Below, in pieces: positions 3,881 to 19,096 of a DNA stretch of 20,221 nt. The position numbers were made by a program, and so were the translations under genes. Position 1 is the first letter of the stretch; each line of letters starts with the position of its first letter. The stretch spans positions 1 through 20,221 of the IMG/VR virus record IMGVR_UViG_3300044971_000813, one strand, 5' to 3'. The notes beneath the pieces were generated by a model. That model was not told the origin of the DNA, ran no database searches, and saw only the letters and a program-made list of their open reading frames with translations. Source of the stretch: a virus.

Positions 3881-4258
3881 TTATTTTAATGTTAGTAAGT
3901 ATTTTGTTTTATTACATTTGCCCATCAACTCCTCGCGTAAGTTTAATAAGTCTGTATCCTTTCTTGCATCTAATACATCTGTAAGATTGATTGCTTTTTC
4001 AATCATATCATCAATTGCAGTTATTACATTAGCATCGCTGATATTTACAAAATCATAAGATAAACCAGCTACATCAACTCTACCATACTTACCCATAGCC
4101 GTTTCAGTAAAGTCATCAACCAATTCCGTTATAGCATCAAATGCTTCACCTAATGCAACGTGCTTTGCATAGATTTTAGTTTGCCAATGAAAAAACTTCA
4201 ATGCATTTGAAAAGTGTTGTGTATCTGCTATATATTGTTGTAAATCTTTATTTTCCAT
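3881..4258 (-). CDS. DUF5856-like protein with a Dps/ferritin-like pattern
   Basis: A 125-residue, almost wholly helical protein. Residues 23-41 (FHWQTKIYAKHVALGEAFD) resemble the N-terminal part of Dps/ferritin-like proteins and the phage family I know as DUF5856, which shares HW...YA.H.ALG and KYG. Candidate metal ligands are His24, His33, Asp48 and Glu52, the last two forming a DxxxE like the Dps ferroxidase centre. The spacing between the two histidines is shorter than in true Dps proteins, so iron oxidation is not established. The start codon shares one base with the stop of the DUF3008 gene (TAATG), which implies translational coupling, and the next gene follows after 5 bases. It may be a virion or host-takeover component. 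Family call moderate to good; function unproven. Confidence 0.7.
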   Translation of the reverse strand: MENKDLQQYIADTQHFSNALKFFHWQTKIYAKHVALGEAFDAITELVDDFTETAMGKYGRVDVAGLSYDFVNISDANVITAIDDMIEKAINLTDVLDARKDTDLLNLREELMGKCNKTKYLLTLK

Positions 4259-5529: not shown

Positions 5530-6744
5530 CTAATATAAATATATAGTTTTAACATTAACCAATGAATTTTGATACTCTATTAGTTTATTTACCGATATAT
5601 CAAAGACATCGTATTTGAATTTCCCAACTGAATTATTATCTTGCATCACCATTGGCATCATTGTTATGAACTTAAACCTCTCTTGATTTGCCAATAAATC
5701 ATCACAATTACACTTAACCACTATATCATTATATGTGACACTATCCAATGGTTTAAACTTTTGGGTTATATCAATATCTGTAAGTTTTAATTCACTTGCT
5801 AAATAATCAACTGCTATTTCAGTATCACAATAGATATTTGAAAAATAAGGTTCTAAATAACCAACCACATCCTCTCTAGCATTTTCCAACACCAACGCAA
5901 TATCATATTTTGGTATTATTGTTGGGTACTGATATTCATCATATAGTGGTGTTGTTCCCCATTTACGGATAAACTCTCTTGTCTGTCTAAATGCTAAATT
6001 ATTCCAATCGTCACTCTTCTTTGCCAAATCATCCGTTTGAGTTGCGTGTTCAAATTGTCCACCTCTACAAGTTAAATGATAAACCAATGCATTCCAAGGT
6101 TGGATGAAATCATAACCATTTAGTAAAAAACGATTAAACAAATCTCTATCTTCACTATGTGATTTCATAATTGGGTCATGCCCACCTACGGATAAGAAAT
6201 CTTCTCTATGGATGAGCCAGGGTGCGAATACACCTTTGGTTGTTCTATCATTATCTAAATTGTGTTCTACAAAATCATTAAACCTTTCTTTCATAAACCC
6301 ATCCTTTACATCTTCCTCTGGCCACAATCCAAAGTTCTCAACTATCTTTGCTGGGTCTGATGGGTGTAATGGTGGTTCAATTCGGGTAGCTGATACTACA
6401 ATACCTTTCTGCCAATTCTTATATAGGTTTAAATCCATATCTTTACCAGCTAACATATCTGCGTGGTATATCACTACGAACTCCGTAGTTGCCTTCTCAA
6501 CCAATAAGTTGTATGCATTACCAATACCATACAATTCGGTGTGTGGGTTCTTATGGTACTCTATACCATTCTCCTTACACCAATCTTCCGTACCATCATT
6601 ATCGGCATCTATGAATACTAATATCTTATGGTCTTTGTTATAGCAGTTCTCTCTAATATATTGAACTGCGTGTTTTAAGTATCGTAAGTTATTCTTACTG
6701 GTGATACAAAATGTAAAATCTGGTATTATTTCTATTGTTTCCAT
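5530..6744 (-). CDS. GT-A fold (family 2-like) glycosyltransferase, long form
   Basis: A 404-residue protein. The N-terminal 230 residues have a GT-A layout: TFCITSKNNLRYLKHAVQ at 11-28, strand ILVFIDADNDGTEDW at 41-55, a nucleotide-sugar metal-binding position at HAD 94-96 (in VIYHADM), and a likely catalytic acid pair at SEDRD 197-201. Residues 230-404 form an extra region with no domain I recognise. Such enzymes transfer a sugar from an activated nucleotide donor. The start overlaps the stop of the preceding glycosyltransferase gene by one base (TAATG), so the two are translationally coupled. It closes the glycosyltransferase run, 21 bases before the DUF3008 gene. The acceptor could be a virion protein, phage DNA or host surface glycan; the sequence does not say which. 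Confidence 0.82.
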   Translation of the reverse strand: METIEIIPDFTFCITSKNNLRYLKHAVQYIRENCYNKDHKILVFIDADNDGTEDWCKENGIEYHKNPHTELYGIGNAYNLLVEKATTEFVVIYHADMLAGKDMDLNLYKNWQKGIVVSATRIEPPLHPSDPAKIVENFGLWPEEDVKDGFMKERFNDFVEHNLDNDRTTKGVFAPWLIHREDFLSVGGHDPIMKSHSEDRDLFNRFLLNGYDFIQPWNALVYHLTCRGGQFEHATQTDDLAKKSDDWNNLAFRQTREFIRKWGTTPLYDEYQYPTIIPKYDIALVLENAREDVVGYLEPYFSNIYCDTEIAVDYLASELKLTDIDITQKFKPLDSVTYNDIVVKCNCDDLLANQERFKFITMMPMVMQDNNSVGKFKYDVFDISVNKLIEYQNSLVNVKTIYLY

Positions 6745-7391
6745 TATTCTCCTACGTCTACCACGTGTCTATCCCAACCTATGTGCTTACAATATCCTTC
6801 TCTGAATATCATAGCAAAGTATTCTCTTTCGTAATAGTATTTACTTATTTCTAATTCTCTACCAATCGGTGCATATCCATCCTTTGGATAATCTATCATC
6901 TTTCGCATTGATGGGTTGAATGTAAATCCATGCCAATGACCATCAAATCCCCAAATCAATCTACGAACTCCCCTGCCATTTACAGCATAGGTTGGGTCTA
7001 TGGATGGGTGTGGTGTATCGTTGGGGTCTCTTGTCCATACACATATAATCTTTTCATCCAAATCAATTACATCCAAACAAGCCTCAATAAATCCTTCTTT
7101 GTAGAACTCCCAATCTTCTTCCATATGGAATACATATGGAGTTGTAATCATAGCGTATGCTTTATCTATACTACGAACTTGTCCTATGTTTTTGGGATTA
7201 TCTATAAACTTAATGAATGGATACTTTTTAATCAAGTCATTATTACAACCAACTACACCACTATCATCAATCACTATAAACTTTTTGATTGGATGTGTGT
7301 TAAAATCATTGAAACTATCCAAAGTTTTCTCTAATAAATCTGGTCTGTTACAAGATGTAACTACAACTGAAACCTCTTTATAGTTGCTCAT
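6744..7391 (-). CDS. Family 2-like glycosyltransferase (GT-A), short form
   Basis: A 215-residue protein, about the size of a single GT-A catalytic domain. It begins VSVVVTSCNRPDLLEKTLDS (residues 7-26), typical of GT2 enzymes. FIVIDDSG at 38-45 is the first nucleotide-binding acidic strand, NIGQVRSIDKAY at 68-79 follows, and MEEDWEF at 90-96 sits where the DXD metal motif is expected. WGFDGHWHGFTFNPS lies in the acceptor half. No membrane segment is present, so it is probably soluble and cytoplasmic. Its start lies 14 bases inside the end of the upstream glycosyltransferase gene and its stop overlaps the next start (TAATG). This chain of overlaps suggests coordinated production of several transferases acting in one pathway. 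Confidence 0.85.
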   Translation of the reverse strand: MSNYKEVSVVVTSCNRPDLLEKTLDSFNDFNTHPIKKFIVIDDSGVVGCNNDLIKKYPFIKFIDNPKNIGQVRSIDKAYAMITTPYVFHMEEDWEFYKEGFIEACLDVIDLDEKIICVWTRDPNDTPHPSIDPTYAVNGRGVRRLIWGFDGHWHGFTFNPSMRKMIDYPKDGYAPIGRELEISKYYYEREYFAMIFREGYCKHIGWDRHVVDVGE

Positions 7392-8004
7392 AGAAATCGT
7401 TTTGTTTTCTTTGTCTATCTATATCTTTGATGTGTTTGATTGAATATAATTCTTCTGGTGGGAATATGGAATAACTTTCGTATCCTTGTATCTTCTCATG
7501 TACTTTACCTGCCCAATAAATACCTTGTTTGTTTCGGTATAATCTACCTTGCACATCTGGATAATTTATCCAACCTTGCTCACTTATATTCCATCCCCAC
7601 TTTTGTATATCATCAGGCGTTACACCATTTACAATGTTGATACGTGGTAGCCAAAACATATCTATTTCTGGATTTTCCTCTAATATAGTATGTAAGTTTT
7701 GAATAAGTGTTGCCTCTAAATCTTCATCTGCATCTAATTGGAAAATCCAATCTCCACTACAATTTTGATTTAGGTGTTGTTTAAACTGCCCGAAATCTCC
7801 GTTTAATGGAAATGATACTAACTTTTGTATTTTAGCATTAATCACACATTCGTTTAGATATTCTACAACGGGAATTGTTGCGGTTGATGAGTCAAACTGA
7901 ATTACAATCTCATCCTCTACTCTTTTATTGGTAGATAATCGTTCTATAAGATTTTGTATCTCAACTATTTCGTTGGATACGGTCACACCATAACTAATTT
8001 GCAT
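7378..8004 (-). CDS. Family 2-like glycosyltransferase (GT-A)
   Basis: A 208-residue protein. It starts with the short GT2-like strand ISYGVTVSNE and has FQLDADEDL at 88-96, a clear DXD-type metal-binding motif. Residues 153-174 contain GRLYRNKQGIYWAGKVHEKI, which matches the R-x-y-R...W-G-x-V-H-E pattern I associate with SunS/WaaE-like GT2 enzymes, where the late His-Glu supports catalysis. It lacks the C-terminal helical repeats that often follow in bacterial homologues. The start lies 3 bases after the unknown 179-residue gene ends, and the stop lies 14 bases inside the next transferase gene. Sugar donor and acceptor are unknown. Confidence 0.85.
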   Translation of the reverse strand: MQISYGVTVSNEIVEIQNLIERLSTNKRVEDEIVIQFDSSTATIPVVEYLNECVINAKIQKLVSFPLNGDFGQFKQHLNQNCSGDWIFQLDADEDLEATLIQNLHTILEENPEIDMFWLPRINIVNGVTPDDIQKWGWNISEQGWINYPDVQGRLYRNKQGIYWAGKVHEKIQGYESYSIFPPEELYSIKHIKDIDRQRKQNDFYEQL

Positions 8005-8007
8005 AAT

Positions 8008-8547
8008 CTATTTTTTATTGTAACTTATTGGTACTAATTCTAACCCTATTTTTTTACCTAATTTTTCCACATTAAAATATACCTCCGTTACTCTTTTTAA
8101 TCCCGGTATTTTATATGTTCTATAACAATCATATGGTTTAAGTAGTGGATTGGTTTTAACTTGTTTTTGATAAAAAGATTTACCTGTTCTATCTATTATA
8201 ATTGGTTTTGCTCCCTGGTCATATTCCAAATTTTCACTAATAAGTGTATTGGTATTTTGTATATCCTTTAACAATGCCACCACATATAACGGGTCTTGTA
8301 TCTTCTTCATTAGTTGACTATACACTCTTAATGGCAAAGGGTTTAACTTAATACAATGTAATAATTTATCGCCTCTGTTAAATCCCAATGTCAATAAGAG
8401 TGGAGTCTGTGATGGACCATATGTTTTAGATGAACCATTTACATAATCATATCCATATAATCTATAAAAAGCACCATTCTTAATCTGTGATTTAGTTGTT
8501 GGTTTCTCTACATAGAAATATGGAATATAATAATATAGGTTATTCAT
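8008..8547 (-). CDS. Unknown phage protein inside the glycosyltransferase operon
   Basis: A 179-residue, basic, tyrosine-rich protein with no membrane segment. It has no glycosyltransferase motif. Two features stand out: TPLLLTLGFNRGDKLLHCIK at about 48-67 followed by a proline and a long amphipathic helix (SQLMKKIQD), and CYRTYKIPGLKRVTEVYFNV near 141-160. This order loosely recalls small proteins of T4-like cyanophages that combine a beta-rich start, a leucine- and asparagine-rich middle and a late YR.Y segment, but I recall no firm function for those and the likeness is weak. The start overlaps the end of the 421-residue glycosyltransferase by 8 bases. Its place between transferase genes suggests it is made with them; it might be an acceptor, chaperone or unrelated virion part. 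Confidence 0.6.
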   Translation of the reverse strand: MNNLYYYIPYFYVEKPTTKSQIKNGAFYRLYGYDYVNGSSKTYGPSQTPLLLTLGFNRGDKLLHCIKLNPLPLRVYSQLMKKIQDPLYVVALLKDIQNTNTLISENLEYDQGAKPIIIDRTGKSFYQKQVKTNPLLKPYDCYRTYKIPGLKRVTEVYFNVEKLGKKIGLELVPISYNKK

Positions 8548-9805
8548 CTACCTTTGTTAGCTTTGGTAAGTTTAATGGAATAAATTGCTTTATTGTTGGA
8601 ACATAATTTGTTAAAATAGTATCAAACAATTTAGTCATTTTTTCCAAACCAAAGTTTTGTTGATTTTGTTTTCCTAATTGTTGTGATGCAATTTTATACT
8701 TATCGTATCCCTTATAAATATCAGTTAATGTTTTAATTGCTCCAGTATAATTTACATAAAACCACTTTGTTCCTTCTAAAATGAATTGGTCTTGTGCAGA
8801 TGGGTGTATATCTTTTAACTCACCATCCAATAATACTGCACCACTTTTTAAGAAATCCAAATGCCCACTCCATCCAGATGCTATAACTGGCTTACCTGTT
8901 AAGCTGAACTCTAATAGAGGTCTACCAAATCCTTCCCCATGTGTAAACGAAACCATAGCTTTTACCTTTGGGTGGTGGTACATCGCATTCATTTCTTCAT
9001 CACTCAACTCACCATGCAGTAAATAGATTGGTGGAGTGTTTTTACCAAACTCTTCCGTAACCTCTTCTAATTTACCCATAGTTGCTTCCCTATCCATTAC
9101 AGAAAAACCTGCCGAAGATGTTTTTAAGATAAGTGCAGGTGGGTTCTTTTGCCCTCTAAACGCGTGACAGAATGATTTAATCATCATACCTACATCTTTT
9201 CTATCGTGCCCTAAATCACCTCTCAACCAATGTCCTACAAATAGATAAGCAAAATCTTCTTTAATCTTATCCAATTCTACAAATTTTGTTTCTGGCTTTT
9301 TTCCAAAGAACTCTTCATTGTATCCTTCAAATAAAACCTCAATTGGTTTATCTAATTTATGTTGTTTGATTACCTGCTTTGTATTCTTATCGGTTTCGCT
9401 GTATATAGTTTTAACTAACACCTCTTTTGAAAACTCCGATGGAACTATAATCATATCCATACGATTACATCCTTGTATAAAATCAACCGAACAAGCAGTT
9501 GTTTCAATCCCAGCAGTAATACCAATGTTGTAATTACCCATAGGTTGAAATTCATTTGGGACTGTAACTTGTATGTAAACATCTGGCTTTCTATCTACAC
9601 CAACAACAATTCGTTGTATAATATCTTCATCGTTTGCAGTTAATGCCGTCATAGGTGTTACTCCCCAACGAGTTGAAATGATACGAACATCGTATTTATC
9701 CAATTTAATTAGGGAACGAACCAAATCTCGTGCGTGGTCACCATAACCACTTCTTGTACTAACTGGTGCTTGAAATAATAATAAAGGTTTTTTAATATCT
9801 GCCAT
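8540..9805 (-). CDS. GT-B fold (GT4-like) glycosyltransferase
   Basis: A 421-residue protein of ordinary length for GT4 enzymes. The N-terminal half has a glycine-containing loop, TRSGYGDHARDL at 17-28, typical of the acceptor-binding Rossmann domain. The C-terminal half carries FVGHWLRGDLGHDRKD at 189-204 and the E-x7-E signature at Glu291-Glu299 in THGEGFGRPLLEF, followed by GKPVIASGWSGH. In GT4 enzymes that pair binds the donor sugar-nucleotide. No membrane segment is present. It follows the 463-residue GT-B gene by 3 bases and overlaps the next gene by 8 bases. The donor is probably a nucleotide sugar; the acceptor is unknown. Confidence 0.88.
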   Translation of the reverse strand: MADIKKPLLLFQAPVSTRSGYGDHARDLVRSLIKLDKYDVRIISTRWGVTPMTALTANDEDIIQRIVVGVDRKPDVYIQVTVPNEFQPMGNYNIGITAGIETTACSVDFIQGCNRMDMIIVPSEFSKEVLVKTIYSETDKNTKQVIKQHKLDKPIEVLFEGYNEEFFGKKPETKFVELDKIKEDFAYLFVGHWLRGDLGHDRKDVGMMIKSFCHAFRGQKNPPALILKTSSAGFSVMDREATMGKLEEVTEEFGKNTPPIYLLHGELSDEEMNAMYHHPKVKAMVSFTHGEGFGRPLLEFSLTGKPVIASGWSGHLDFLKSGAVLLDGELKDIHPSAQDQFILEGTKWFYVNYTGAIKTLTDIYKGYDKYKIASQQLGKQNQQNFGLEKMTKLFDTILTNYVPTIKQFIPLNLPKLTKVDE

Positions 9806-9808
9806 AAC

Positions 9809-11200
9809 TTATTTGTCTAATGTAAATAATTCGTACTTCTTGCGAGGTGTAAAGTTTTCTAATGCATCGTTGATACCATCTGTCATAGTTTTACACATAT
9901 TTTCTAATGATAACCCACCTTCACCTAAAGCCCACTCTCTACCTCTCAATCCCATTGCCTTTCTCTCTGCATGAGTCCTATTATATAACTCACGTAGTGC
10001 AGATGATACCTCATAATTATCCACGTGGTCTTCCATAATATATGGTGTTGGTGGTGAACCGGTGTAAGAACGAGAGCGACTCCATATTGGAATAACCCAA
10101 TCTCCCCAAGTTACCTTATCTTCAAACTTTCTCCAATCGTGCAAAGAACCAATCTCTACATAATCTTCTTCGTTTAATGCTACTCCACTATCTTTCCAAC
10201 GGAAACCACATTGGTCTTGTAATCCACCAGTTACATTTACAATAACAGGTGTTCCTGCTACAATACTTTCTGCACTAGCCAATCCAAATCCTTCTGCTGA
10301 TGAAATGTTTAAAGTAACATCTGCTATATTGTATAGTTGGTTTAGTTGTTGCTCATTCCACTTTCTATCATCGAATATCACATTTATCCCATCACACAAA
10401 TCTGCTACTACCTTTGGTAAATCTGTACCATTCTCATCTACTTTTTGTGTGTGCATCAATAGAGCACATTTATCACGCTCTTCTTCTGGTAGGTTATTTA
10501 CGAAATCTCTGAATGAAACAATCACATCAATTGCCTGCTTTCTACGAATATTTCGGTTATTCCAATATGCTATAAAATCATATTTCTTATCACCCAATAC
10601 CTCTTTGTAGAATGTGTCATCAATTTGTGTTGGTTTGTAATCAGTTCCGTTGATACCATGTGGTACATACTTTACTTGCCAATCCGCAGGTTGCTTCCAA
10701 CGTGATTTAGTATCCATACCCCATACTCTACGAGTAATACCATAGGTTTGTCTTGATATAGTACCAACCCAATCACAACTCTCTAAATAATCTCTGTTGT
10801 ATTGTGGGTCTGGTAAATCATCCCAAATGTGATAGAATAGGATTGGGATGTTTTGACGGATTTCGTGCTCAATTTGATATAACCAAATCCAATACCTCGG
10901 GTCTGTAAAGTGTAGGATTGCATCTGGGTTTTCCATATTGATGATTTGCCTTAATGAATCAGCAGTACCATAGCCTGATGATGGATAGATTTTTACATAT
11001 GCATCTTCGATACCCGTTCTCTTACGAACATCATCACATAAATCCATAATCTTACCTTCTTCTGGATGTTTTACCGCTGCACCAATTTGTACCCAATCGA
11101 AATCTTTTAATGTACCTAATACGAATTGCTTTGACATATTAGCAATACCACTTGCCATTCGTAGGTCATCTGATAGTAACAATATTTTCTTTTTTGCCAT
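9809..11200 (-). CDS. GT-B fold (GT4-like) glycosyltransferase
   Basis: A 463-residue protein. It opens with KKILLLSDDLRMASGIANMS (residues 4-23), a Rossmann strand and glycine loop. VPHGIN at 179-184 marks the inter-domain boundary, NRNIRRKQA at 215-223 contains basic residues where GT4 enzymes contact the donor phosphates, and SAEGFGLASAESIVAGTPVI at 301-320 holds the E-x7-E signature (Glu303, Glu311). HFTDPRYWIW near 97-106 is a distinctive aromatic patch in the N-terminal domain. It begins 6 bases after the ribbon-helix-helix gene and ends 3 bases before the second GT-B gene. The two GT-B proteins are clearly different from each other, so a recent duplication is unlikely; they probably perform successive steps. 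Confidence 0.88.
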   Translation of the reverse strand: MAKKKILLLSDDLRMASGIANMSKQFVLGTLKDFDWVQIGAAVKHPEEGKIMDLCDDVRKRTGIEDAYVKIYPSSGYGTADSLRQIINMENPDAILHFTDPRYWIWLYQIEHEIRQNIPILFYHIWDDLPDPQYNRDYLESCDWVGTISRQTYGITRRVWGMDTKSRWKQPADWQVKYVPHGINGTDYKPTQIDDTFYKEVLGDKKYDFIAYWNNRNIRRKQAIDVIVSFRDFVNNLPEEERDKCALLMHTQKVDENGTDLPKVVADLCDGINVIFDDRKWNEQQLNQLYNIADVTLNISSAEGFGLASAESIVAGTPVIVNVTGGLQDQCGFRWKDSGVALNEEDYVEIGSLHDWRKFEDKVTWGDWVIPIWSRSRSYTGSPPTPYIMEDHVDNYEVSSALRELYNRTHAERKAMGLRGREWALGEGGLSLENMCKTMTDGINDALENFTPRKKYELFTLDK

Positions 11201-12374: not shown

Positions 12375-12406
12375 CAAAGATACAAAAAAAGATTTGGTTT
12401 CCCAAA
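12375..12406 (-). promoter_or_regulatory. Bacteroidetes-type promoter for the Cas4-like gene
   Basis: On the minus strand TTTG (12406-12403), a 20-base spacer and TATCTTTG (12382-12375) match the Bacteroidetes -33 TTTG / -7 TAnnTTTG consensus. The expected start of transcription is about 12368, giving a leader of only 10-16 bases before the ATG at 12358 or 12352. The -33 box lies inside the right arm of the terminator hairpin. Confidence 0.75.
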
Positions 12407-12413
12407 TCTTTTT
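12386..12413 (-). terminator. Intrinsic terminator after the GHKL-nuclease gene
   Basis: A perfect 12-base-pair stem, AAAAAGATTTGG and CCAAATCTTTTT, closes a 4-base loop that reads GAAA on the minus strand. Minus-strand transcription ends in a run of seven T. It lies 25 bases beyond the stop of the GHKL-like gene. Since both flanks are A/T tracts it could act on both strands. It is the only strong terminator I found in the window. Confidence 0.85.
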
Positions 12414-12438
12414 CTGATTATTTTTAATAAAATTTATT

Positions 12439-14100
12439 TTAATTTACATTATGTAATTGGTGTTCCTCCAATGCTTTAGTTGTATATCTATCATACTGAA
12501 TATCAAAACCTTCATCGGCAACATCAATAAGTGCATCTTCCAAATTAAATGATAATTGACCACTCCCTTTAATATTTGTTATAAGTTTATTCCAACTATT
12601 TACGTTTTTAGTTTTAATACCGCGCGAAACACCAATGATTTTAAAGACGTTTTTGGTAGTAACTACATATCCAATTGATTGTAATCTAGCAGATTCATTG
12701 AAATCATCTCGCTTACATTCAATTATAATACATTTAGTATCGGAGGTTACTTTATCTCCCTTATTTACCATATATATTTTAAAATCATGTCTTTTATCAT
12801 CGGAGTTCCATTCCATATAAACAAGCTTTTTTCTTTCATCCTCTGACATATCATTAAGAAAATCTAAACCCCAACTTGTTCTTGTACGATTACAAGCAGC
12901 ACGCCCTCCAAAATCTTTAACAATTACATCATACATCCACAATTGAATTGCACGTTCTAATAATTTGTTATCTGGATACGTGTCCAAAAGATATGGTTTT
13001 AATATATCAGAAAGTGTTTTGGATAATATGGGATTAACTCCAGCAAACTTATCAACCGTAACAAAAAATGGTCTTAATTCAACTTTATCAATATCACATT
13101 CCAAAACAACATTATTCAAAGAAGTTGAACCAGAATGCCCTCTTAATGGAATCATAAATGCAATCTGATTAGAACCCTTATAATATACTGTTAAATACGG
13201 TCTATCTCCTTCCATTATACCAATATTCCCACTACGTTTACCTAATTTAATATTATCCAATGTAATTGATATTTCAGTATCATCTAATGGTACTTTAACA
13301 ACTAATTGTTTTATTGTTTTATGGTCATATGTTAAGCAATTAAATTCAGCAGTTTGTAGTGGTGTTCCTTTTTTACTTACCCAACTAACTCCTTTTGATT
13401 GGATTGGACTACTTAATTCTCTATCAATTGTTTCCGTAGGAAATCCAGATGCTTCTAGAATATAATTTCTACCATCACTTACATTTCTATTATCATATAT
13501 ACTTAATATATCCCTTAAACCATCAATAAACTTTCGATAATCACCCATTTGTTTGGTATATGGTATATTCATTTCAATAATAACACCACTTTTTGGTTCA
13601 TTAATTTCTTCAAAAGAAGTTTCGCCAGTTTTAACATTCCAAACTTCCCACTTTTCCATTTCGGAAGTTTTTACTTTATATACCAACGCTGATGTATAAA
13701 GTGATTGTGTGTAAATGCCAGTTCCATATATAGAACTAGAATCGTTTTCTTTCTTTGGTTTAAATGTTACACCCTTAACAATAGTTTCATCTAAACCATC
13801 ACCATATTGAATGACCTTTATATCAAACCCATTGGTGGTCTTTTTGATTTGAAACAATACCTTTTTAACATTTCTAGGAATATTTGTAAGAATTTCAAAC
13901 CATAGTTTTAATATGTTCTTACTTAATTCTTGATTTTGCTGCATTGCTGCAGAACCTACGGATTCCATAGATTTCATTTTAGCAATTTGCGGTTCAACCG
14001 CTCTAATAAGAGCACGTTTTACATTGCGTTTTAAGCCACTAATTTCTGATTCATTTGAAACTACTGCCTTTTTCGTTTCTTGCATGATTTTTGTAAACAT
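12439..14100 (-). CDS. GHKL-ATPase-like protein with C-terminal PD-(D/E)XK-like motif
   Basis: A 553-residue protein. Residues about 25-180 resemble a GHKL (gyrase/Hsp90/MutL/MORC) ATPase: an N-box with ExxxN at Glu69-Asn73 (LWFEILTN), strands FQIKKTTNGFDIKVIQ, YGDGLD at 99-104 where D-x-G-x-G is expected, and SIYGTGIY at 123-130 as the GxG lid motif. The usual aspartate of the second box is Gln98, so nucleotide binding may be altered or lost. Residues about 430-480 fit a nuclease core: Asp439 (RHDFKIYMV), E-C-K at 461-463 (IIIECK) and Gln474 (ARLQSIGYV). The middle is mainly beta strands. GHKL plus nuclease recalls MutL, MORC-type and some defence ATPases, but I recognise no named family. 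It has its own promoter and terminator, so it is a single-gene unit beside a restriction-like nuclease. A role in excluding rival phages or attacking host DNA is inference. Confidence 0.7.
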   Translation of the reverse strand: MFTKIMQETKKAVVSNESEISGLKRNVKRALIRAVEPQIAKMKSMESVGSAAMQQNQELSKNILKLWFEILTNIPRNVKKVLFQIKKTTNGFDIKVIQYGDGLDETIVKGVTFKPKKENDSSSIYGTGIYTQSLYTSALVYKVKTSEMEKWEVWNVKTGETSFEEINEPKSGVIIEMNIPYTKQMGDYRKFIDGLRDILSIYDNRNVSDGRNYILEASGFPTETIDRELSSPIQSKGVSWVSKKGTPLQTAEFNCLTYDHKTIKQLVVKVPLDDTEISITLDNIKLGKRSGNIGIMEGDRPYLTVYYKGSNQIAFMIPLRGHSGSTSLNNVVLECDIDKVELRPFFVTVDKFAGVNPILSKTLSDILKPYLLDTYPDNKLLERAIQLWMYDVIVKDFGGRAACNRTRTSWGLDFLNDMSEDERKKLVYMEWNSDDKRHDFKIYMVNKGDKVTSDTKCIIIECKRDDFNESARLQSIGYVVTTKNVFKIIGVSRGIKTKNVNSWNKLITNIKGSGQLSFNLEDALIDVADEGFDIQYDRYTTKALEEHQLHNVN

Positions 14101-14165
14101 TGTTTATTTTATTTATTTTTTGCCTACTCTATTCGGTTTTCGGCTTACCCGTTTTTTTAATTGTA

Positions 14166-14197
14166 TAAAGATACAAATAAAGTTTTAATTATCCTAA
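14166..14197 (-). promoter_or_regulatory. Promoter for the GHKL-nuclease gene
   Basis: On the minus strand TTAG (14197-14194), exactly 20 bases, then TATCTTTA (14173-14166). The spacing and boxes match the other three promoters called in this window. The TTAG includes the stop codon of the upstream nuclease gene. The expected leader before the ATG at 14100 is about 59 bases, longer than elsewhere, and holds CGG-rich short repeats (14124-14153) without a convincing hairpin. Confidence 0.65.
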
Positions 14198-14748
14198 TTA
14201 TTTTTAATAAAATTAACAAAATCTTGTAATTTGTTTTCGTTGATTGGTTTATAGTGTGGATTACGCCAGATTGGTTTTGTAGATGAACGCTTCCCATCAC
14301 ATAAATAAAACACTTTGTGGATGTTTCCTTCATCCATATAGTATTCATATGCCTTATCACTTACACTATTCTCTAATGCTAGGATAAAGGTAGTAGGTTT
14401 TGATTGAACACCATTTAGGATTCTACCAAAATCTGAACTAGCCCTTTCCATAAAACATCTATCTAAATATGCTTTACACTCACCAATCTTTGCCATAGTT
14501 CCATCGGTATGGTATAGGTGTCTATCTACCTGAAACTTTAAGGTATAACCACTTTTACTCACCGATTCAATAAAATCGTTCTTCTTTGATTCACCACCGA
14601 TTTCAGTTTTCCAAATCAAATCTAACAATCCCTCTACCACTTCTTTCATAGTGGAACGAACCATACCCATCTCGCCTTTGTTAGCGAATGATGCTGCTAA
14701 TTGGACATTATCTTCGTAATACTTTATGTAAGTTTGTAAGTTGCTCAT
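14194..14748 (-). CDS. Small restriction-endonuclease-like PD-(D/E)XK protein
   Basis: A 184-residue protein. Residues 70-107 hold a PD-(D/E)XK nuclease core: Asp75 (FQVDRHLY), a short hairpin, then Glu90-Cys91-Lys92 (IGECKAYLDRCF) followed by RASSDF at 102-107. The D-x14-E-x-K order and the ECKAYLDR continuation are like those of several type II restriction enzymes. The helical N-terminus (VVEGLLDLIWK, 37-47) holds Glu39, which could be the extra acidic residue of such folds. The small size fits a lone type II-like subunit acting as a dimer. No DNA methyltransferase is visible within the window. It is the last gene of the small-gene operon, 11 bases after a 54-residue gene, and precedes the GHKL-nuclease promoter. 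It might cut host DNA or rival phage DNA; the phage would need modified DNA or site avoidance to survive it. Confidence 0.72.
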   Translation of the reverse strand: MSNLQTYIKYYEDNVQLAASFANKGEMGMVRSTMKEVVEGLLDLIWKTEIGGESKKNDFIESVSKSGYTLKFQVDRHLYHTDGTMAKIGECKAYLDRCFMERASSDFGRILNGVQSKPTTFILALENSVSDKAYEYYMDEGNIHKVFYLCDGKRSSTKPIWRNPHYKPINENKLQDFVNFIKNN

Positions 14749-16355: not shown

Positions 16356-16661
16356 TTATTCTTCACAAACCGAAAACTCAATTGCTGGTCCTAATGTGAA
16401 TCCACCACTAACACCTGCGTAATTGTAATTGGGTTCTAATATCTCTCTAACTTTCTCTCTATCAAATGAGTCAAACTGAATTTCGTGCTCATGTGGTTCG
16501 GTCAGATACTCACCGATTGCTGCCTCAATATCCTCTGTGGATGCGATGCGATACTCACCATACTCTTCATTGTAGAAATCATTACAGTACTCAATAAATT
16601 CTTTAAGGTCTGATAGAAAACTCACTGCTTTCATCATCGGAATTGGGGCTTCATTCATCAT
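16356..16661 (-). CDS. Small acidic phage protein, unknown
   Basis: A 101-residue, strongly acidic protein. An N-terminal helix (VSFLSDLKEFIEYCNDFYNE) is followed by a second helix (STEDIEAAIGEYL), a His/Glu-rich turn (EPHEHEIQFDSFDREK) and a glycine-rich end (GVSGGFTLGPAIEF). I recognise no family. Two ATG codons stand side by side at 16661 and 16658; either could be used. It is the first gene after the promoter at 16698-16729 and heads the operon that ends with the restriction-like nuclease. Confidence 0.7.
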   Translation of the reverse strand: MMNEAPIPMMKAVSFLSDLKEFIEYCNDFYNEEYGEYRIASTEDIEAAIGEYLTEPHEHEIQFDSFDREKVREILEPNYNYAGVSGGFTLGPAIEFSVCEE

Positions 16662-16719
16662 ATCTTTATTGTTTTATGTTTAACTCTTATTACTCTATAA
16701 AGGTAAGCAAAATAATTCA
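16662..16719 (-). repeat. Promoter-leader repeat, copy 1
   Basis: These 58 bases match 17215-17271 with three substitutions and one single-base gap. The repeat reaches from the base before the ATG through the -7 box and into the promoter spacer. Beyond 16719 the two copies diverge. Confidence 0.9.
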
Positions 16720-16729
16720 ATTATGCAAC
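16698..16729 (-). promoter_or_regulatory. Promoter of the small-gene operon (16661 to 14194)
   Basis: On the minus strand GTTG (16729-16726), a 20-base spacer, then TACCTTTA (16705-16698). The -7 box is 37 bases before the ATG at 16661. The spacing is the same as in the three other promoters called here. The preceding gene ends at 16752, so this promoter fills the largest gap in the block. Confidence 0.7.
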
Positions 16730-16751
16730 GTCTTTGTAAAATATTTTTTAA

Positions 16752-16982
16752 TTATTTTAGGCGATACATAAATAAATATCCACAATCTTCATCGTAATCT
16801 GCATCTTCAACTACCTCATTCGAACCACCGATGATGGCCTGTAATTTAGCCAAATCAACGCTTCTCCAATAACCAAATCGGAAAAACACATTATAATCAC
16901 CACCCCAAACCTGTTTGATTTCAAAATCACCAAACTCTGCTTCAATCGTTTTTAATGTTGAAATACTCAATCCGTTTCTCAT
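16752..16982 (-). CDS. Small phage protein, unknown
   Basis: A 76-residue protein with a mixed alpha-beta look: helix ISTLKTIEAEFG, then VWGGDYNVFFRFGYWRS (25-41), a strand-rich aromatic core, then helix DLAKLQAIIGG and an acidic end (EDADYDEDCGYLFMY). No family recognised. The gene lies 31 bases after the 66-residue gene and carries the 3' half of the shared leader (GTTTAAC...TTTATTTG at 16983-17004 on the plus strand) but no -7 box, so it is likely read from the 17250 promoter. Confidence 0.68.
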   Translation of the reverse strand: MRNGLSISTLKTIEAEFGDFEIKQVWGGDYNVFFRFGYWRSVDLAKLQAIIGGSNEVVEDADYDEDCGYLFMYRLK

Positions 16983-17013: not shown

Positions 17014-17214
17014 TTAAGCCATCCAAGACTCATACCCACGTTCAACCAACGCAGGTATTACCTCTGCGTAACGCTCCTCACTCACCACCCCATGCCAAAA
17101 GGTGTAATCCCAATTGACCTTATGGGGGTCATTACTCCCAGCGAACTCCGCCATTGTGATTAACAAATCACAATACTCACTCACACTCATTGAAACAATC
17201 TCTTCGTTACTCAT
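17014..17214 (-). CDS. Small phage protein, unknown
   Basis: A 66-residue acidic protein, with a helical start (VSEYCDLLITMAEFAG) and NWDYTFWHGVVSEERYAEVI at 34-53, followed by a helix ending ESWMA. The aromatic FWHG segment is striking, but no family is known to me. It is first gene of its transcript, 36 bases after the -7 box of the promoter at 17250-17281, with the AATAAAGATATG start context. Next to it, divergently, lies the only plus-strand gene. Confidence 0.68.
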   Translation of the reverse strand: MSNEEIVSMSVSEYCDLLITMAEFAGSNDPHKVNWDYTFWHGVVSEERYAEVIPALVERGYESWMA

Positions 17215-17271
17215 ATCTTTATTTTTTATGTTTATCTCTTACTACTCTATAAAGGTAGGCAAAATAATTCA
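17215..17271 (-). repeat. Promoter-leader repeat, copy 2
   Basis: These 57 bases pair with 16662-16719 (54 identical positions and one gap). Both copies sit immediately in front of a small gene and include a -7 box and whole untranslated leader, which suggests duplication of a promoter cassette rather than chance. Confidence 0.9.
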
Positions 17272-17281
17272 CATTTCCTAA
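17250..17281 (-). promoter_or_regulatory. Promoter of the 66- and 76-residue gene pair
   Basis: On the minus strand TTAG (17281-17278), a 20-base spacer, then TACCTTTA (17257-17250), 36 bases before the ATG at 17214. The rest of the divergent gap, 17282-17342, is very AT-rich. On the plus strand it holds a weak TATATTTA at 17316-17323 that could serve the 52-residue gene, without a good -33 box. Confidence 0.68.
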
Positions 17282-17342
17282 TGTTTTCTTAATTATTTTC
17301 AAAATATTTTTTTAATATATTTATATATACATTGGAAGTTAT

Positions 17343-17501
17343 ATGAAAACATTTTTTACAAAAGCATTAGTTTATTCAATTGGAACAATTGTAGTTTCAG
17401 CTGCGGTATTTAGTATTACTATGGCGGGGTTAAACCTTGCTGGTCAAACTGATATTACCAACCAAGTTATTGAAGAAATGGATGAAGTTTTAGGAATCTA
17501 A
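17343..17501 (+). CDS. 52-residue single-pass membrane protein, only plus-strand gene
   Basis: An ATG at 17343 opens a 52-codon frame ending in TAA at 17499-17501. The start is MKTFFTKALVYSIG; residues about 9-31 are hydrophobic (TIVVSAAVFSITMAGLNLAG) with a lysine-containing N-terminus, so it is probably a single membrane span with an acidic tail (VIEEMDEVLGI). The size and layout resemble small phage membrane proteins, including some holins and inhibitors of superinfection, but no family is recognised. Its stop codon overlaps the stop of the oppositely directed secreted-protein gene by two bases. The coding sequence has clear codon structure and no competing minus-strand gene. The promoter is uncertain. 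Confidence 0.7.
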   Translation: MKTFFTKALVYSIGTIVVSAAVFSITMAGLNLAGQTDITNQVIEEMDEVLGI

Positions 17502-19096
17502 AGCATTAATCTAGAACCTATTAAGAAATTACTTAATATCGGTGCTCCAGAAGCAGTTGATGTGTTTATCTTATAGTTGAAACTCAAACCAAACTTTTTG
17601 GATAATTTATAATCTACGGATGTTCCTAATAAAAATCCAAAGTCTTTACCCATTTTTATATCCCCATTAGAACTATCCCAACTCCCACCCGGTAACATCG
17701 TAAATATCTGTGGTGATAGTGTTAGTTTTTTATTCATTTGATATGGTTTAGTCCAAAAGGCAACGGTTGAACTACTCATACCATACGAATACCCACCAGT
17801 TTCTTGCGGTGATAGTAAATTAACCAAACCCACATTATAACCATATACACCAAATTTAGGATGTGGTTTAATCCAAGTAAATCCAGCTAACCCCATTAAA
17901 GTTCCACTTAAATATGCAGTAGTAACTGAATAGGAGTTCATAGATACTAATGCTCCATCCTTTAAGTTCATTTTAGTAATACCACCACTCAAAGCAAATT
18001 GCTTTAAGCTAGACCATATCATAGATGTTCCTGAATAACTAACATTACCTGCTGCCGATGAACGAGATACACCCAATGTTATAATAGCATCCCAATTAGC
18101 AGTATCAGATTGAACTACACTTAAATCGGATGCAAATAGTAATGGGTTTATTATTGCAGCCTTTTTCTTTTCTTCCTTCTTCTCCTCTTTCTTTTCTTCT
18201 TTTTTAGATTCGGATTTAGATTCTTCTTTCTTTTCCTCACTCTTACTTTCTGATTTGGATTCTTCTTTTGATTCGGATTTAGATTCAGATTTGGATTCAC
18301 TCTTACTTTCCGATTTAGCTTCAGCCTTTGCCTCTGCTTTTGCTTCAGCTTTTGCTTCGGCTTTTGGAGCAGCTCCTCCTCCCCCACTTTGTGATGAACC
18401 ACCACTTGCTGGCGCAGGTGTATTATTGGCTGCTGGTGCAGGAGCGGATGGGGTTGGTGCTGATGGAGTTGGTGGTGGGGGTGGAACTGCGGAAGCTGCT
18501 GCCGATGAAGCTGCCCCACCAGCCGCCGAACCAGCTGCCGATGATGCGGCTCCACCCGCCGCCGAACCAGCTGCTTTTGAAGCCGCTGCCGATGCAGCTG
18601 CTGCCGCAGCTTTTGAGGCTGCTTCTGCCGCCGCTTTTGCTGCCGCCTCTTCTGCGGCTTTTGAGGCTGCCGCCTCCGCAGCTTTTGAAGCCGCTGCCGA
18701 TGCAGCTGCCGAAGCCGCCGCCTCCGCAGCTTTTGATGCAGCCGCCGCCGCTGCTTGCGTTGCTGCCGCCGCTGCCGCTTGCTGAACTGCCTGATTTACC
18801 GTTTGTTGAACTGTTTGTTGAACTACCGTTGCAGCACACCCTTTGTTAGCGTATGTGATATATACCGCTTGTAACCAAATTTTCATTGCACCACTTTGAA
18901 CTTCATCGGGTGTAAATACTTTCATTTGGTCATAAAATGATACAAAAGCATTTCCATTAACGTAAGTAGTAGTGGCAAGTTTTACTTCACCAGTACACTT
19001 ATCTATAAATGTTTGTGTAAATGTTGTTTGTCCGTTAGCTTTGAAAGCTAGACAGAATATGAATAATACACTTAATAGTATTCTTAACTTTTTCAA
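17498..19096 (-). CDS. Secreted protein with Ala-rich and charged repeats and a probable outer-membrane C-terminal domain
   Basis: A 532-residue protein. Residues 1-22 are a classic Sec signal peptide (MKKLRILLSVLFIFCLAF), likely cut between Gly22 and Gln23. Residues 24-90 form a small domain with Cys34 and Cys87. Residues 92-203 are Ala-rich with SKAAE-type units, then PPPPPTPSAPTPSAPAPA, a Gly/Ser patch, AEAK repeats (245-260), SESK repeats (261-285) and EEKK repeats to 312. Residues 313-532 alternate polar and apolar residues, rich in Gly, Ser and aromatic residues, ending FLIGSRLML, as in a small beta-barrel. The start must be the TTG at 19096: the in-frame codon just before it is TGA, and the next Met would lose the signal peptide. 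A phage-made outer-membrane protein could block a receptor or aid release. It follows the beta-helix gene by 34 bases. Confidence 0.75.
   Translation of the reverse strand: MKKLRILLSVLFIFCLAFKANGQTTFTQTFIDKCTGEVKLATTTYVNGNAFVSFYDQMKVFTPDEVQSGAMKIWLQAVYITYANKGCAATVVQQTVQQTVNQAVQQAAAAAATQAAAAAASKAAEAAASAAASAAASKAAEAAASKAAEEAAAKAAAEAASKAAAAAASAAASKAAGSAAGGAASSAAGSAAGGAASSAAASAVPPPPPTPSAPTPSAPAPAANNTPAPASGGSSQSGGGGAAPKAEAKAEAKAEAKAEAKSESKSESKSESKSESKEESKSESKSEEKKEESKSESKKEEKKEEKKEEKKKAAIINPLLFASDLSVVQSDTANWDAIITLGVSRSSAAGNVSYSGTSMIWSSLKQFALSGGITKMNLKDGALVSMNSYSVTTAYLSGTLMGLAGFTWIKPHPKFGVYGYNVGLVNLLSPQETGGYSYGMSSSTVAFWTKPYQMNKKLTLSPQIFTMLPGGSWDSSNGDIKMGKDFGFLLGTSVDYKLSKKFGLSFNYKINTSTASGAPILSNFLIGSRLML
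18155..18366 (-). repeat. Tandem codon repeats encoding EEKK, SESK and AEAK units
   Basis: Within the secreted-protein gene, 12-base units encode AEAK (four to five units, about 18318-18366), then SESK variants, then EEKK-type units to about 18155. Units differ in synonymous positions, for example TCA, TCT and TCG complements, so the array is not freshly expanded. Such arrays can change length by slippage. Confidence 0.8.
18487..18790 (-). repeat. Alanine-codon-rich imperfect repeat
   Basis: About 300 bases of mostly GCN codons encode Ala with interspersed Ser-Lys, Glu and Gly-Ser units; AGSAAGGAASSA occurs twice in tandem. It is far richer in G and C than the rest of the window. Long shadow reading frames on the other strand and in other frames arise from this composition. 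Confidence 0.8.

Follow-up and report, generated by a model that had tools for sequence, protein, structure and literature searches.

Known GHKL–nuclease layouts and the phage gene

The paraMORC3 proteins, defined in 2008 by Iyer, Abhiman and Aravind, consist of an N-terminal GHKL domain, an S5 domain and a C-terminal nuclease of the restriction-endonuclease fold, and stand-alone paraMORC3 genes without restriction–modification neighbours occur in Bacteroidetes (PMC2292703). VcSduA, which is of the paraMORC3 type and represents Shedu type I-D, was shown in 2025 to be anti-phage, and its defence is abolished by E27A or K557A (PMC12137116). Among the Bacteroidota genomes that we sampled, we also found proteins with HATPase_c_3 plus SduA_C. 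Here we analysed a 20,221-base virus record (the window), which holds a gene for a GHKL-nuclease-like protein on the minus strand, with an ATG start and 553 codons for amino acids, exactly as first annotated. The first-pass annotation knew of no protein with this layout; this does not hold, as paraMORC3 (PMC2292703) and VcSduA (PMC12137116) already have it. The layout is known from bacterial anti-phage proteins, and it is Gln98, at the place of a residue that normally holds ATP, that makes the strongly diverged phage protein an unusual variant.

The likeness to paraMORC3 lies in the order of the probable GHKL and S5 parts and the candidate C-terminal nuclease, and in the E-D-ExK motifs. The paraMORC3 members that we aligned keep the Asp of the ATP box, and their glycine lid is fuller (GRKGIGK), whereas the window protein has Gln98 and YGTGI; it is also phage-borne and bears no significant sequence relation to them (best hhalign p 0.03, non-significant), while as a positive control hhalign joined paraMORC3 and RIIA with a probability of 98. 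VcSduA is likewise a single protein with N-terminal GHKL and C-terminal PD-(D/E)XK, the latter a candidate in the window protein, and counterparts of its essential residues E27 (N-box Glu) and K557 (ExK Lys) are kept. However, VcSduA comes from a bacterium and carries the DUF4263/SduA_C signature (PF14082), for which no match was found in the window protein or in the L002 and L004 records, and a local Shedu HMM scored the window protein no better than shuffles. T4 RIIA and its orthologues resemble it in being phage-encoded, with GHKL at the N-terminus and a C-terminal domain that varies, but they mostly lie beside RIIB, have the canonical Asp and show no detectable sequence relation to it. The N-terminal domain of MutL is the best structure match, over both GHKL and transducer, but MutL has a canonical ATP box and a different C-terminal domain. 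On present evidence, and by analogy, the window protein would work like paraMORC3 and Shedu I-D, with non-significant homology to their members.

Four contigs of the viral collection (L001–L004) carry the family; three are 98% identical and one, L004, is 65% identical. Scans of the viral contigs with different parts of the family returned only these four and re-fetched copies, and a query with a bacterial GHKL-Shedu protein retrieved no relative among the viruses. Scans against Pfam, NCBIfam, PADLOC and PHROGs gave no real match, and no relative was found by tblastn in the phage and plasmid collections, by a pattern scan of genomes or by a sequence search of the PDB. Weak matches in Bacteroidota genomes (E ~0.003–0.008) were regarded as chance. 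A 55-kb contig, G001, is 99.97% identical to the window where aligned and looks like the same phage; its gene content includes thymidylate synthase, a DNA methyltransferase and a head maturation protease-like gene. L004, a 19-kb record of a T4-like genome, has the family gene ~2 kb ahead of replication genes that encode a UvsX-like recombinase, an RNase H-like exonuclease and a DnaB-like replicative helicase, with ribonucleotide reductase also nearby, the helicase and the reductase being assigned by reading the sequence. The proposed location of the gene in a phage is supported.

Purifying selection acts on the gene (dN/dS ~0.24 over 549 codons), which argues that it encodes a real protein. 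Conservation is highest in a block of the transducer region (90% identity), and dN/dS falls to 0.08 in the late transducer block. The motif residues named in the first annotation (E69, N73, Q98-Y-G-D-G102, G126-T-G128, D439, E461-C-K463 and Q474) all occur where stated, and they are invariant in the 65%-identical relative P0005 except for Y99 and D101 of the box, which reads Q-I-G-E-G there.

Table 1. Features of the gene, its product and its flanks in the window.
Feature	Position	Strand	Basis or remark
GHKL-S5-nuclease-like protein	12439..14100	-	ORF, relatives L001–L004, dN/dS 0.24; 553 aa here, whereas near-identical relatives have 563 aa
GHKL (Bergerat) domain, residues ~45–220 (probable)	13441..13968	-	Foldseek PDB top 50 all GHKL; MAFFT motif register with paraMORC3
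N-box E69-x3-N73	13882..13896	-	E putative general base, N putative Mg ligand; MAFFT register
ATP box Q98-Y-G-D-G102, Gln for adenine-contacting Asp	13795..13809	-	Alignment with GHKL and RIIA proteins
Junction of 30-base in-frame deletion, private to window; TNLQTINSNL absent	13794..13795	-	Comparison with L001, L003, G001
Lid/G2 motif G126-T-G128	13717..13725	-	Sequence, relative P0005, MAFFT register
Transducer (S5-like), residues ~231–375 (probable)	12976..13410	-	Structure matches span GHKL and transducer of MutL; most conserved block
Candidate lysine finger K351 in VTVDKF	13048-13050	-	Putative role
PD-(D/E)XK nuclease-like domain, residues 376–553	12442..12975	-	Motif register with Shedu-type nucleases; PSSM z ~3–4
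E382, candidate first-helix Glu of nuclease	12955..12957	-	Conservation, MAFFT register
D439 (KRHDF), candidate metal ligand	12784..12786	-	Conservation, MAFFT register
E461-C-K463 (ExK)	12712..12720	-	Conservation, MAFFT register; K557 is equivalent Lys in VcSduA
Q474 (ARLQ)	12679..12681	-	Conservation, MAFFT register
Terminator-like hairpin downstream of gene	12383..12416	-	Overlaps promoter of next gene
Structured RNA in 5'-UTR, Rfam DUF805b (RF02914), cis-regulatory	14121..14153	-	44.5 bits, E 7e-10
Possible Bacteroidota-type -7 element GTATCTTTA	14166..14174	-	One mismatch to GTATCTTTG; weak
Restriction-endonuclease-like protein P0002, 184 aa, upstream neighbour	14194..14748	-	PADLOC REase_II 2.8e-7, PHROG 10849

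Probable GHKL fold and the altered ATP box

An AlphaFold model was built from the family's own sequences alone (mean pLDDT 37) and compared with known structures by Foldseek. Every one of the top 50 PDB matches is a GHKL ATPase (E 2e-6 to 6e-5; aligned columns ~200–480), led by the N-terminal domain of B. subtilis MutL (E 2e-6), with MutL-type matches spanning GHKL and transducer; Hsp90/HtpG, TRAP1, topoisomerase VI-B, SMCHD1 and PMS2 are among the others. In the viral structure library, the matches were topoisomerases, RIIA and HSP90-like proteins. Models of such low confidence can mislead a structure search; they do not give strong matches by default, since the equally poor model of the C-terminal domain gave none below E 0.2. 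Neither the Pfam HATPase_c families nor a local HMM made from 29 GHKL proteins gave a significant profile match; this HMM scored the window protein within the shuffle range, and a GHKL PSSM stood only z ~0.5–1 above shuffles. In all four of the MAFFT modes, the N-box, D-box, lid and nuclease ExK come into register with paraMORC3 proteins. The proposal of a GHKL-type N-terminal module draws its support from the predicted-structure search, without significant sequence profiles, and the model suggests that the window protein probably has a GHKL plus transducer fold.

The ExxxN of the N-box and the glycines of the ATP box are present, Asp is replaced by Gln98 and the lid is reduced to YGTGI. The site equivalent to Gln98 is Asp in each of the 39 other proteins aligned (29/29 GHKL and 10/10 RIIA). 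The changed residue, which had been singled out on first reading, is conserved: the homologue search recovered Gln98 in the 65% relative. The window copy has a further change next to it. All three near-identical copies (L001, L003 and G001) encode a 563-aa form that reads QYGDG-TNLQTINSNL-LDET, and the window lacks the middle 10 residues; at 13769, 26 bases from the deletion, it also has a substitution to A that is private to it. These two are the only window differences common against all three copies, and additional substitutions relative to G001 lie at 3932, 4553 and 7789. As the family form is 563 aa, the ATP box region is more altered in the window than in the family: Gln98 is a family property, and the missing 10 residues are a property of the window record. 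The deletion could reflect damage to the allele or a fault of assembly, both being possible, and the window allele without these residues beside the ATP box may be inactive.

Nuclease-like C-terminal end

The order of the C-terminal motifs, H-D439-x21-E461-C-K463 and Q474, together with E382, fits PD-(D/E)XK. D439, E461 and K463 align with those of paraMORC3 nucleases in 3/4 MAFFT modes, as in NKRHDFKIY of the window protein and NKRPDLLLN of paraMORC3, or CIIIECKRDDF and YLLIEFKRPSH, respectively. A PSSM of the nuclease part gave z ~3–4 above shuffles, and HMMs did no better than shuffles, or hardly so. The AlphaFold model of the C-terminal domain has a mean pLDDT of 36 and produced no structure match below E 0.2. 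Of the proposed PD-(D/E)XK-like end, the motifs and their conservation stand, but the structure model does not show the fold; a PD-(D/E)XK nuclease is plausible from the sequence, and less certain than the GHKL half.

Function, alternatives and genomic setting

We give about an even chance (roughly 0.5) to the reading that the protein is a phage two-part enzyme, a nuclease gated by a nucleotide that it handles in an altered way. The N-terminal GHKL plus S5 module would bind nucleotide, dimerise and close like a clamp, and closure would release the C-terminal PD-(D/E)XK nuclease for DNA cutting. Of this scheme, the GHKL-type fold, the order of the motifs and the conservation of Gln98 and the catalytic-type residues are supported; that the protein binds nucleotide, dimerises, cuts DNA and is gated is drawn by analogy with MutL and VcSduA. 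As the Gln in place of Asp is conserved and the N-box retains its Glu and Asn, nucleotide is probably still handled, with altered affinity or base specificity. Such an enzyme would likely serve to destroy host or competing-phage DNA, or to process phage DNA, and the earlier suggestion of an accessory gene for anti-phage action or host attack is reasonable as a guess.

The change of Asp to Gln could also mean loss of ATP binding. The protein would then be a pseudo-ATPase whose GHKL part only dimerises or holds DNA, as a scaffold for the nuclease, consistent with Gln98, the short and degenerate lid motif, the missing N-box Asp, the weak GHKL profile score and the 10 further residues gone from beside the box in the window allele. 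Against this, E69, N73 and the box glycines are kept under purifying selection in both lineages, and we regard such a loss as improbable. A strongly diverged RIIA-type phage protein with a counter-defence or membrane role, in which the nuclease-like motifs would be just one variable C-terminal end, also seems unlikely, if somewhat less so; the T4-like context and the RIIA proteins among the viral structure matches are in its favour, but neither a significant profile match to RIIA (hhalign probability 0.1) nor any PHROG match of weight was found, Asp is present in 10/10 RIIA, and by eye no adjacent RIIB was recognised in the window or L004, although RIIB stands beside RIIA in most of the phage loci fetched.

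An assignment to DNA metabolism, as a MutL-like phage protein whose nuclease end aids recombination or repair, is about as improbable as the pseudo-ATPase. It would suit the place of the gene before the recombinase, exonuclease and helicase genes in L004, and MutL is the best single PDB match. In the window, however, the neighbours are glycosyltransferase and small accessory genes, the gene is carried by only two lineages in the viral collection, unlike core genes, and the nuclease domain of MutL itself has another fold (PMC2292703). More speculative still, and quite improbable, is the idea of a phage-borne family of GHKL-gated nucleases that, through the conserved Gln, answer a non-ATP nucleotide (say, one of guanine, or a signal of infection) and cut competitor or host DNA, with loss-of-lid alleles such as that of the window segregating.

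Should the reading as a nucleotide-gated nuclease be true, the GHKL-plus-nuclease layout of bacterial anti-phage proteins would extend into T4-like phages, and the family would offer a natural test of GHKL switch function without the adenine-reading Asp. A protein still gated with Gln98 in place would be a functional exception to the rule by which this Asp defines the superfamily's ATP site.

The claim that the gene has its own promoter and terminator stands in part: a terminator-like hairpin follows the gene, but for the promoter there is a weak -7 element, and a sigma-70 scan gave fewer promoter-like sites than shuffles. A similar -7 element precedes the family gene in L198. The hairpin overlaps a Bacteroidota-type promoter of the following nuclease gene (TTTG-N20-TATCTTTG, 12375–12406, minus strand), and from this promoter type the phage host is likely a member of the Bacteroidota. 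The DUF805b RNA lies ~20 bases before the start codon, and the 55-kb relative yielded no further copy. No Rfam match occurs 5' of the gene in the 65% relative, which has a 6-bp hairpin in a similar place, and no paper on this RNA was found in the literature searched.

Upstream, 93 bases separate the gene from the restriction-endonuclease-like gene on the same strand. The product of the latter, P0002, has homologues at 26% identity in the Synechococcus phages S-CAM1 and S-CAM3; P0002 was rejected as an obligate partner, since its homologues in T4-like cyanophages have no GHKL-type gene annotated nearby and none of its own kind was seen in L004. Elsewhere in the window, a six-gene run at 5530–11200 (minus strand) includes five glycosyltransferase-like genes (family 2 and group 1, and one GT4-conflict, PF20706). 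A ~103-base repeat occurs twice, at 16658–16758 and 17211–17310, with 84% identity between the copies, and 17498–19096 (minus strand) encodes a low-complexity protein that starts like a signal peptide and has long stretches rich in Ala, in Pro and in Lys/Glu/Ser.
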